Assembly: GCA_002724395.1 (NCBI GenBank)
Contig: PBOR01000043.1
Coordinates: forward strand, 28,740 to 92,739
Direction: 5' to 3'
DNA: 64,000 nucleotides
Source of the DNA: Rhodospirillaceae bacterium
Lineage (GTDB): Bacteria; Pseudomonadota; Alphaproteobacteria; UBA8366
The notes beneath the pieces are model-generated. The model was not told the origin of the DNA, made no database searches, and worked only from the letters and a program-made list of their open reading frames with translations. Below, piece after piece: positions 420-29,754 of the stretch. A program made the position numbers and the translations under genes. The stretch's first letter is position 1; each line of letters begins with the position of its first letter.

Positions 420-872
420 CTAAGTATCCTCACGCGAAGGCACTAATAACATCGACGTACCTTCCACGACGACCTTATCACCCACCCAACAAACTGATTC
501 CGCAATTACGCGTTTTTTTTCCTGGATAATATCTGAGATAGTGACTTTCGTATTAACTGTCTGCCCAGGCCGAACCGGCGCTTTAAACTTCACCTCTTGA
601 TTCAAATAAACACAACCAGGGCCCGGCAGCTTTGTTCCGAGCACGGTAGAAATGAACACAGCAGTCAACATTCCATGAGCGATACGCCCTTTAAAAATAG
701 ACTCACTGGCAAATTCTTCATTCAAATGCAGCGGGTTATTATCACCCGAGATCCCGGCAAAGATCACGATATCGGTTTCCGTAATAGTCTTCGCGTAGGA
801 TGCTGTCATACCTATTGTCAGGTCTTCGATAAAATAACCATGAAGGTCAGATTGTGGCTGCATCGCATCCAT
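420..872 (-). CDS. MaoC-like (R)-specific enoyl-CoA hydratase
   Basis: A 150-residue single hot-dog domain protein of the MaoC/PhaJ class, which hydrates trans-2-enoyl-CoA to (R)-3-hydroxyacyl-CoA. The hydratase motif is clear: GDNNPLH at residues 43-49 supplies the catalytic Asp44 and His49, and the segment around residues 64-70 (RIAHGML) is also typical. I chose the ATG at 872 because GGAGAG sits about 5 bases upstream; a longer reading begins at a GTG at 887. PhaJ-type enzymes can feed (R)-hydroxyacyl-CoA to polyhydroxyalkanoate synthesis, but the substrate here is not shown by sequence. The neighbour ribF is not functionally related. Confidence 0.85.
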   Translation of the reverse strand: MDAMQPQSDLHGYFIEDLTIGMTASYAKTITETDIVIFAGISGDNNPLHLNEEFASESIFKGRIAHGMLTAVFISTVLGTKLPGPGCVYLNQEVKFKAPVRPGQTVNTKVTISDIIQEKKRVIAESVCWVGDKVVVEGTSMLLVPSREDT

Positions 873-973
873 GAATTCTCTCCACACTTATAAAGTTTTT
901 GCGGTGCAATATAACCTTAAGAATTGCGTAATACAATCAGGCGATCTACATAAGTTTTTGATTTTCCGTTTTT

Positions 974-27545: not shown

Positions 27546-28019
27546 ATGAAATCAATACTTTGCGTCAGCGCTGTTTTGGTTGCCCTCTGCGGCTGCCAGA
27601 CGACAACCGATCGTGACAATAAATTAGCGGCGTCGACAATTTTAGGCGCAGCTACAGGAATCATAATTGCCTCTCAATTCTATGGCTCTGGCTCTAGCGG
27701 GGCTATTGCAAAGATTTTCATCGGTACGGCCGGCGCAATAGGCGGTTATTACCTAGCTCAGGAGCTATTGCCCCCTGAGAAGGAAGCTTTAGCCGAGGCA
27801 GCTTATAAAAGTCTAGAATCTTCAAAAATTGGCGAAACCGTAAGCTGGCATAACGAAGATACAGGAAACTCCGGCACTTTCACACCAACCCGGGAGTTCA
27901 CCGACAAGCGCGGTAGACGTTGTCGAAACTTCAAATCTAGTATTACCGTCAACATGGAAACCGCAAACTCCAAGGCTTCCGCATGCCGAATAACCGATAG
28001 CGCGTGGCGCGCGGTTTAA
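27546..28019 (+). CDS. Surface antigen-like outer membrane lipoprotein
   Basis: A 157-residue lipoprotein with a lipobox LCGC (Cys17). A glycine/alanine-rich segment (about 31-70, TILGAATGIIIAS ... GGYYLAQ) resembles the glycine-zipper of 17 kDa surface antigens. The C-terminal part has the SWHNEDTGNSGTFTP, GRRCRNF and final SAWRAV features of the RT0821-type surface antigen family (COG4520). Probable location is the outer membrane; role unknown. It stands alone between two non-coding regions. Confidence 0.8.
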   Translation: MKSILCVSAVLVALCGCQTTTDRDNKLAASTILGAATGIIIASQFYGSGSSGAIAKIFIGTAGAIGGYYLAQELLPPEKEALAEAAYKSLESSKIGETVSWHNEDTGNSGTFTPTREFTDKRGRRCRNFKSSITVNMETANSKASACRITDSAWRAV

Positions 28020-28039
28020 CTTGCACCTTAATTAATATT

Positions 28040-28074
28040 AAAAAAAAGAATGGGCCGCGCTATTACGCGGCCCA
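28040..28074 (-). terminator. Rho-independent terminator of the small RNA
   Basis: Perfect 9-bp stem, TGGGCCGCG (28051-28059) with CGCGGCCCA (28066-28074) and a 6-base loop. On the minus strand it is followed by TTC and then eight T residues, a strong terminator. On the plus strand no T-run follows, so it does not terminate the lipoprotein gene efficiently. Confidence 0.85.
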
Positions 28075-28108
28075 AGTTTAGGGAGGAAACGCCCAAGAGA
28101 GCGCAGAT
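28040..28108 (-). ncRNA. mmgR: MmgR/alpha-r8 (suhB-family) like small RNA
   Basis: Read on the minus strand, a predicted start near 28107 gives an RNA of about 70 bases. Its first hairpin (28090-28076) is GUUU, loop CCUCCCU, AAAC, exposing an anti-Shine-Dalgarno core. A 9-bp terminator stem and U-run follow. This arrangement matches my recollection of the alpha-r8 family (Rfam suhB; Sinorhizobium MmgR), about 77 bases with a conserved CCUCCC-containing loop, linked to polyhydroxybutyrate granule and phasin control. Promoter dyads at 28118 and 28151 fit that role. Identity is by pattern, without a covariance search. Confidence 0.65.
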
Positions 28109-28113
28109 CTTAC

Positions 28114-28142
28114 AACATTGCGCCGCAGCAAAGCTTGGACAA
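28114..28142 (-). promoter_or_regulatory. Promoter of the small RNA
   Basis: On the minus strand a TTGTCC -35 box (28142-28137) is separated by exactly 17 bases from AATGTT (28119-28114) as -10. The predicted start is about 28107. A YTGC-N3-GCAR dyad (28118-28128) overlaps the -10 box and spacer, where a bound repressor would block transcription. Confidence 0.55.
28118..28128. promoter_or_regulatory. PhaR-type operator 1 (TTGC-N3-GCAG)
   Basis: TTGC-GCC-GCAG. Fits the TGC-rich CTGC-N3-GCAG form described for the PHB regulator PhaR. It lies between the -35 and -10 boxes of the small RNA promoter and touches the -10. Confidence 0.5.
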
Positions 28143-28150
28143 CCTGTATG

Positions 28151-28161
28151 CTGCATTGCAA
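28151..28161. promoter_or_regulatory. PhaR-type operator 2 (CTGC-N3-GCAA)
   Basis: CTGC-ATT-GCAA, 33 bases (about three helical turns) from operator 1 and just upstream of the -35 box, so two bound proteins could sit on the same DNA face. Confidence 0.5.
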
Positions 28162-28226
28162 TATATGACAGGTTATTCCTGGCCGAACAACCCCTCATGT
28201 AACAGAAATAGTAAATTAAAATAATA

Positions 28227-28237
28227 TTGCGCTGCAA
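28227..28237. promoter_or_regulatory. PhaR-type operator 3 (TTGC-N3-GCAA)
   Basis: TTGC-GCT-GCAA, a perfect inverted repeat further upstream (76 bases from operator 2). It may be an auxiliary site or chance. Confidence 0.35.
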
Positions 28238-28352
28238 GAATGCTATGCGCAATACATTGGCTCATAATCTCGGCATGGCGCAACTAAGCCCAAATTTGCG
28301 TCGAGACATAAAATTTTTCTGACGCTATGATCATGAACTTTTCTCAAAGGAC

Positions 28353-28521: not shown

Positions 28522-29754
28522 ATGCGCAACCTAATCATTGATAGTAATAGGCTATGGCAAAGCCTAATGACCATGTCCAAAATCGGAGCTACCGAGAAAG
28601 GGGGCGTCCGTCGATTAACCTTAACTGACCTTGATCGCCAATCACGCGATTTATTTGCAGAATGGGCCTCAGCCTGCGGCTGCACAATGCATGTGGATGC
28701 TATGGGCAATATGTTCGTCCATCGCGCAGGGACTAATGAAGCCTTGCCGCCAGTCATAACCGGTAGCCATTTAGACTCTCAACCAACCGGCGGCAAATTT
28801 GACGGGGCCTACGGTGTGCTAGCAGGCCTAGAGGTGTTGCGTACGCTTAACGAAAACAAGATAGAAACTGAAGCGGCCTTAGAAGTTGTAATGTGGACAA
28901 ATGAAGAAGGCTGCCGTTTTGCACCGGCTTGTATGGGCTCAGCGACGTTTTGCGGTGCCTTCGCACTTGAATATTCTCATGGACGGTCGGATCAAGAAGG
29001 CAAAACCGTCCTCGAGGAACTAAAACGAATTGGCTATCTTGGCGAGGGCTGCGGGGACCGCCCGGTCGGGGCTTATTTTGAGGCTCATATTGAGCAAGGA
29101 CCGATTTTAGAGGCAGAGGGAAAAACCATTGGGGTAGTCACCGGCGCACAATCCCAGCGCTGGTATGAAATTACACTGACAGGCATGGAAGCTCACGCGG
29201 GGCCAACCCCGATGGAACGCCGCAAGGATGCACTAATTAGCGCCGCTAAACTTGTGCAAGAGGTAAATCAAATTGGCTTAGACTTTCAACCAGGCGGCTG
29301 TGCGACGGTTGGCGTACTCGATGTTTTCCCCGCAAGTCGCAATGTTATACCCGGACGAGCCTTCTTAACAGTAGATTTACGGCACCCCAGCGATGCGAAA
29401 CTGGCGAAGATGGATGAAATACTCCGTAACACCGCAGAATCGATCGCGAAAGACGCCGCACTGACCCTTGATCTTGATCAAATCTGGGCCTGCGATGCAA
29501 CTAACTTTGAAAAAAGCTGTATTAACGCCGTACGCAAAGGAGCGAAGGCCGCAGGCTTTAGTCATCGGGATATTATCAGTGGCGCCGGCCATGACGCAAT
29601 GTACGTGGCCCGTATTGCGCCTGCAGCCATGATATTCGTGCCTTGTGAGGGCGGTATTAGCCATAATGAAATTGAAAACGCCACCCAAGATGATTTGGCA
29701 GCTGGTTGTCAGGTATTATTGAACGCAATGCTGGAAAAAGCTGGCACTCATTAA
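28522..29754 (+). CDS. Zn-dependent hydantoinase/carbamoylase family amidase
   Basis: A 410-residue M20-fold amidohydrolase, of the group covering N-carbamoyl-L-amino acid hydrolases, beta-ureidopropionase and allantoate amidohydrolase. The metal ligands are visible in GSHLDSQPTGGKFDG, in TNEEGCRF and in EAHIEQGPILE, with GAGHDAMYVA near the end. The exact substrate is not decided by sequence. It ends 5 bases before the convergent ctaA stop. Function in nitrogen recovery is an inference. Confidence 0.88.
   Translation: MRNLIIDSNRLWQSLMTMSKIGATEKGGVRRLTLTDLDRQSRDLFAEWASACGCTMHVDAMGNMFVHRAGTNEALPPVITGSHLDSQPTGGKFDGAYGVLAGLEVLRTLNENKIETEAALEVVMWTNEEGCRFAPACMGSATFCGAFALEYSHGRSDQEGKTVLEELKRIGYLGEGCGDRPVGAYFEAHIEQGPILEAEGKTIGVVTGAQSQRWYEITLTGMEAHAGPTPMERRKDALISAAKLVQEVNQIGLDFQPGGCATVGVLDVFPASRNVIPGRAFLTVDLRHPSDAKLAKMDEILRNTAESIAKDAALTLDLDQIWACDATNFEKSCINAVRKGAKAAGFSHRDIISGAGHDAMYVARIAPAAMIFVPCEGGISHNEIENATQDDLAAGCQVLLNAMLEKAGTH

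Follow-up and report, generated by a model that had tools for sequence, protein, structure and literature searches.

A 64,000-nt stretch of DNA from a Rhodospirillaceae bacterium (hereafter the window) encodes a previously undescribed member of a known small RNA family, alpha-r8/MmgR, on the basis of a covariance match to Rfam RF00519 (suhB/MmgR, alpha-r8) at 28037..28109 of the minus strand, which covers the full model (1-77) and scores 54.5 bits against a cut-off of 41 (E 1.9e-8). We consider it probable that this gene, taken as a whole, yields an RNA of ~115 nt that is controlled by PhaR, released by polyhydroxybutyrate (PHB) and able to pair with Shine-Dalgarno sites via the 10-mer UUUCCUCCCU. 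A broader proposition, which we hold tentatively and with somewhat more doubt than confidence, is that alpha-r8 RNAs form a hard-wired arm of the PHB sensor across Alphaproteobacteria, starting within the PhaR operator, so that the transcribed right half of the operator becomes the 5' arm of a stabilising hairpin outside the family model.

The RF00519 match was the sole one above gathering score when Rfam covariance models were run across the 64-kb window. The original prediction, which had assigned a minus-strand RNA at this place to alpha-r8/suhB and proposed this covariance search as its check, is supported in that assignment, both by the above-cut-off match and by the family 10-mer; taken as a whole it held in part, since the CCUCCCU segment and terminator it described are present while its GUUU/AAAC stem and its promoter proved weaker (see below). 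SorY (RF02651) and BjrC1505 (RF02356), which like the window RNA carry a CCUCCCU segment ahead of a GC-rich terminator, were rejected as families, with scores far under their cut-offs (21.7 bits vs. 111 and 22.9 bits vs. 50, respectively). The parent genome (G000; 3.41 Mb in 75 contigs) carries the RNA on contig C8 and no second copy over the cut-off elsewhere; a match on C16 was rejected as a second copy, as it reached 31.7 bits, below the cut-off, and lacked CCUCCC. RF00519 had matches with E <= 0.001 in 42 of 59 genomes (own included) and over the cut-off in 35, and the corresponding numbers among 142 genomes drawn from the class were 81 and 65. Weak RF00519 matches in four genomes (L135, L136, L137 and L138) have ACGTCTCCCAGACGTGAAGCCTCCCTGTT in common and by their look perhaps represent another CCUCCC-bearing RNA family similar to BjrC1505. 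Conservation within the genus does not set the RNA apart from its surroundings: identity to the same-genus genome G001 was 93.0% for the RNA core, 93.7% for the adjacent lipoprotein gene, 88.9% for the leader holding the 5' hairpin SL0 (see below) and only 75.0% for the promoter stretch, in which the -10 element is identical and the spacer has diverged.

The CCUCCCU segment lies inside UUUCCUCCCU, an exact match to the anti-Shine-Dalgarno pairing segment of the family, at 28080..28089 (read from 28089 to 28080 on the minus strand). Among the 30 loci of relatives, 29 have this 10-mer, as do 25 of 26 additional class loci, and it was unpaired in the fold of a 72-nt strand and partly paired in that of a 120-nt strand. 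Our alignment comprised 34 rows, namely 29 of the 30 loci (L032, which has no 10-mer, was left out) and 5 of 20 extra stretches. The terminator, likewise as predicted, is an intrinsic stem-loop at 28051..28074 (minus strand) whose 10 pairs include 8 G-C pairs; behind it comes TTCTTTTTTT, with a T run that extends to 28040. Six of the eight counted terminator pairs showed change on both sides in the alignment. The 72-nt strand folded better than 200 of 200 shuffles (z -4.45), and RNAalifold on the 34-row alignment predicted the terminator as the sole structure. The short hairpin SL1 of the family model (GCUC-UCUU-GGGC) was placed by the RF00519 alignment at 28091..28102 (minus strand), with 80.6% of the cells of its helix pairing across the 34 rows. 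The weak 5' hairpin and the Rho-independent terminator of alpha-r8 are both present in the window RNA. A GUUU/AAAC stem around CCUCCCU, described in the original prediction, is possible in that 96.3% of cells pair, but it was absent from the minimum-energy and alignment folds and none of its pairs changed on both sides.

It is highly improbable that the element is a mere terminator of the convergent lipoprotein gene, on whose 3' side it lies, and that the Rfam match arose by chance: against this stand the E value of 1.9e-8 over the window, the invariance of GCGTTTCCTCCCT across all 34 rows (which were, however, selected for holding the 10-mer), and a T run that is long behind the stem on the minus strand only. 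In line with the original prediction, no protein frame explains the element: the spanning open reading frame (28028-28252, minus strand) starts with TTG and had no match in a Pfam search, and in G001 two stop codons interrupt the corresponding frame.

Published accounts of family members provide a frame for interpreting its regulation. In S. meliloti (Sinorhizobium meliloti), mmgR is repressed by AniA/PhaR and induced by NtrC (PMC7143759), and an mmgR mutant has elevated PhaP1 and PhaP2 with unchanged levels of their mRNAs (PMC8401924). PhaR sites published for this species follow the motif WNWD2NYGCRNYGCRNH2WNW, and the protein, which PHB granules sequester, has been found to shift the promoter of mmgR (PMC12542648); the Bradyrhizobium PhaR consensus TGCRNYGCASMA agrees with that motif (PMC6201568). 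The window RNA resembles MmgR in its RF00519 score over the cut-off, its 10-mer, its terminator and its PhaR-type promoter box, and differs in a predicted start further upstream and a predicted extra 5' hairpin. No NtrC-type site was found near its promoter, where the only two matches, with four mismatches each and among 185 in the window, are no better than chance. With SisA-D of Caulobacter crescentus it shares a UUUCCUCCCU segment between a weak hairpin and the terminator.

Upstream regions of the relatives' loci contain recurring TTGCnnnGCAA dyads. We scored such sites with a PhaR matrix built from 24 published, gel-shift-tested S. meliloti sites (training scores 14.0-25.8 bits), from which the mmgR site was left out; the held-out mmgR site scored 20.1 bits. 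At least one PhaR-type site of at least 9 bits occurred within 150 nt upstream at 27 of the 30 loci (all but L014, L023 and L031), compared with 0.036 expected per 150 nt from the remainder of the same loci. The pattern recurred in a second set, which took one new locus per family from the top scores of the class search (26 loci, with f8 in both sets) and in which 21 had a site vs. 0.041 expected (the exceptions being L155, L164, L167, L168 and L174). Over the two sets combined, 48 of 56 loci carry a PhaR-type box at the promoter, both sets being best-scoring loci and not random draws. Phasin loci served as a positive control: from 31 loci, 4 cut loci were left out and the window genome's own locus was scored apart, and 25 of the 26 relatives' loci thus scored carry a PhaR-type site. 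In the window genome itself, phaP has three PhaR-type boxes and phaR has one at 9.0, and the negative controls phaC and hfq have none.

In the window, box 1 (ATATATTGCAATGCAGCATAC) at 28146..28166 scored 18.2 bits, rank 2 of 63,980 positions, and is likely an operator of the PHB sensor PhaR, matching the PhaR/AniA site at the promoter that characterizes the MmgR circuit. Two weak PhaR-like boxes, box 2 at 28113..28133 (10.5 bits, window rank 11) and box 3 at 28222..28242 (11.6 bits, window rank 9), fall under the weakest training site (14.0 bits). The window's best PhaR-type box (18.5 bits) lies elsewhere, at 894-914, just ahead of an open reading frame for a MaoC-like hydratase (420-887, minus strand; PF01575), an enzyme that could supply PHA precursors. 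Of 47 genomes that have PhaR, 32 contain a family match over the cut-off, compared with 3 of the 12 that lack it (Fisher p 0.0095, a hand count uncorrected for kinship and completeness). In the three alpha-r8 genomes in which no PhaR gene was found, the locus lacks a box in G008, is boxed in G016 and is boxed by eye in G019.

These boxes bear on where transcription begins. The promoter that we predict, P1, consists of a -35 element TTGTTC (28185..28190) and a -10 element CATATA (28162..28167) on the minus strand, with a 17-nt spacer. At 22 of the 30 relatives' loci the pattern TTGnnn-N17-YAnWWn occurs with the PhaR core right behind the -10 element, at a distance of 7 nt from the start of the -10 in 20 loci and 8 nt in 2; by itself, the promoter pattern has an expectation of 0.033 per 150 nt. 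Because of this conserved register, we predict a start near 28154 and, with the end set by the T run, a full transcript of ~115 nt (28040..28154, minus strand), so that the RNA is probably longer at its 5' end than the ~70 bases of the original prediction. Five loci (L004, L149, L154, L161 and L165) have two PhaR-type boxes at a distance of ~21 nt, one within the spacer between -35 and -10, the other directly behind the -10.

A promoter scan found no minus-strand site at its threshold. A shorter transcript would result from a proximal promoter, TTGTCC-N17-AATGTT at 28114..28142 (minus strand), which was located by sequence and is probably the 17-spaced promoter that the original prediction had in mind. 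It would produce a plain MmgR-like RNA of ~73 nt starting near 28108, with the upstream repeat acting as DNA in the form of a PhaR operator pair. This account, which we consider somewhat unlikely, draws on the existence of the correctly spaced pair, on the description of MmgR as 77 nt (PMC7143759), and on the fact that each PhaR box is a dyad, so that two boxes yield an inverted repeat without any RNA structure. The proximal pair was, however, seen by eye in the window and G001 only, whereas the register of the upstream promoter is fixed across 22 of the 30 loci. With this more widely conserved promoter, also 17-spaced, situated 48 bases upstream of the proximal one, the RNA probably does not begin at 28108. 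The geometry of mmgR allows for an intermediate position: its PhaR site is given a position of 13 relative to the start (PMC12542648), and the review PMC8401924 places a dyad between the -35 and -10 elements. By this analogy the start could be nearer 28133, which would put the 5' arm of SL0 outside the transcript, but in this order the upstream start is favored by a conserved CATATT directly ahead of the PhaR core.

With the start near 28154 that we favor, the RNA would open with an extra hairpin, SL0 (28125..28154, minus strand; arms GCAGCA/UGCUGC), which appears in the folds (arm pairing p 0.013) and shows covariation. As an inverted repeat, SL0 sits between the right half of box 1 and the Rfam 5' end; its 5' arm is a half-site of the PhaR operator, and it is not part of the RF00519 model. 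Over 24 loci, 89.0% of its cells pair (vs. 81.3, sd 1.3, in shuffles), six pairs changed on both sides (vs. 3.3, sd 1.0, with 7 of 500 shuffles reaching six) and 22 cells changed on both sides (vs. 8.5, sd 3.1); versions slid along the alignment gave 16.5-57.5% pairing. These loci comprise all f1 (6) and f3 (11) loci among the 30, 4 f2 loci from the extra stretches (one of them, L142, scoring 34.5 bits) and half of the 6 f4 loci, the f4 rows being misaligned in the alignment and other weak matches left out. Two features of the repeat speak against its being an operator pair that acts purely as DNA: the pair adjoining the operator motif covaries (A-U in 9 rows, G-C in 4, U-A in 3 and C-G in 1), and L023 retains 10 of 10 SL0 pairs without a scoring PhaR box. 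The 120-nt strand folded better than 198 of 200 shuffles. Arm pairing surpassed plain letter shuffles (p <= 0.05) in 19 of 26 boxed relatives and only 6 of 21 class loci, suggesting that support for SL0 is strong in this order and partial elsewhere. We infer from these patterns that the repeat is transcribed as a hairpin.

The genome encodes Hfq, PHA synthase (PhaC), phasin and PhaR. The strength of pairing does not mark phasin out as a target. The duplex of the RNA with the phaP leader reaches -11.2 kcal/mol, an energy equalled or surpassed by 9 of 46 window genes; phasin leaders average -8.8 kcal/mol (n=28, from 31 loci of which 3 without a start were left out) vs. -7.9 for the 46 window genes. 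By duplex energy the phasin leader is unremarkable, and the PHB link put forward in the original prediction, which had proposed phasin and PHB gene leaders for target prediction, rests on the PhaR-type boxes at the promoter and not on leader pairing. Sites complementary to the 10-mer were only slightly enriched (97+75 vs. 73+60 in a reversed control), and 2 of the 30 one-mismatch sites inspected out of 172 (L053 and L057) are Shine-Dalgarno sites before open reading frames of >400 aa.

The absence of a special partner in the phasin leader would fit a general anti-Shine-Dalgarno repressor of nutrient-uptake genes that is nearly constitutive, controlled by a sponge and without any special tie to PHB. 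PMC12559287 describes such an RNA: SisA, an alpha-r8 member whose 10-mer, shared by SisA-D, is identical to that of the window RNA, represses a large set of targets, likely via this 10-mer, and is nearly constitutive, and SisA-D are antagonised by CrfA. We regard this account as unlikely for the window RNA, given that 48 of the 56 alpha-r8 promoters examined have PhaR-type boxes; for Caulobacter sisA-D, the same paper reports no upstream motif in common. A further difference lies in gene neighborhood, as sisA adjoins the FGase gene, while in the window genome FGase is on C41 and the RNA on C8. This linkage is no condition of family membership, and FGase is stated to be a neighbor of alpha-r8 in most species, not all (PMC12559287). 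In our data the 8 loci (from 7 genomes) at which FGase lay within 1 kb of alpha-r8 belong without exception to orders other than that of the window genome.

The window RNA is instead flanked by a convergent gene for a 17 kDa surface-antigen-type lipoprotein (27546..28019, plus strand; PF16998), a 97%-identical relative of which appears in the record 'MAG: Rhodospirillaceae bacterium isolate SAT126', and by a divergent gene for an M20 hydrolase of the allantoate amidohydrolase/N-carbamoyl hydrolase type (28522..29754, plus strand; NF006769 and TIGR01879 over cut-off). Among the 30 loci (with L003, which repeats L021, uncounted), alpha-r8 neighbors include a relative of the lipoprotein in 15, msbA in 10 and ctaA in 8, and the M20 hydrolase is found beside alpha-r8 in the window's own genus only (2 of 30 loci).

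Several phasin loci contain elements reminiscent of the family. In L129 (G030), L130 (G027) and L133 (G024), an alpha-r8-like element with CTTCTTCGG..GTCCTCCCT and a terminator begins no more than 3 nt past the phasin stop codon and scores 29.6-32.5 bits, below the cut-off, as if a sibling RNA came from the phasin 3' UTR; the phasin promoters of L129 and L130 have about four PhaR-type boxes by eye. In L131 (G017), a stand-alone alpha-r8-like element at positions 4012828-4012896 of the contig scores 30.6 bits, has a PhaR-type box by eye and is preceded by phasin and one further open reading frame; the gene behind it is the one that follows phasin in L129 and L130. Phasin 3' hairpin loops resemble the alpha-r8 10-mer in L100 (G005; TTTCCTCCCTCCC) and L126 (G004; TTTCCCTCCCCTCCC), and the phasin of the window genome has no such loop.

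Under our preferred reading of a PhaR-controlled alpha-r8 RNA, PhaR would repress the gene at an operator overlapping P1, and as PHB builds up, granules would titrate PhaR and release the RNA, which, by analogy with described family members, would pair via UUUCCUCCCU with Shine-Dalgarno sites and block translation of a subset of mRNAs, with those of storage-granule proteins predicted among them, presumably with help from Hfq. Since the phasin gene of this genome likewise has PhaR-type boxes upstream, levels of the RNA and of phasin would increase in parallel, with the RNA acting as a brake on the same PhaR regulon; published genetics suggested braking of this kind in S. meliloti.

The family, its 10-mer and the PhaR control of one member (S. 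meliloti mmgR) were already known, and our literature searches, which did not extend to the 2016 phylogeny and 2018 promoter papers, turned up no account of PhaR boxes across the class or of an operator-derived hairpin. The tie between MmgR and PHB is known so far from one rhizobium, and boxes in most sampled loci of the class would make this link an old property of the family, predicting alpha-r8 expression whenever PHB is made. If SL0 is transcribed, the RNA would be longer in this order than the databank model, and probes or expression constructs that begin at the Rfam 5' end would lack a portion of the molecule. If the broader proposition is true, one stretch of DNA would combine three roles, those of repressor site, transcription start and RNA structure.
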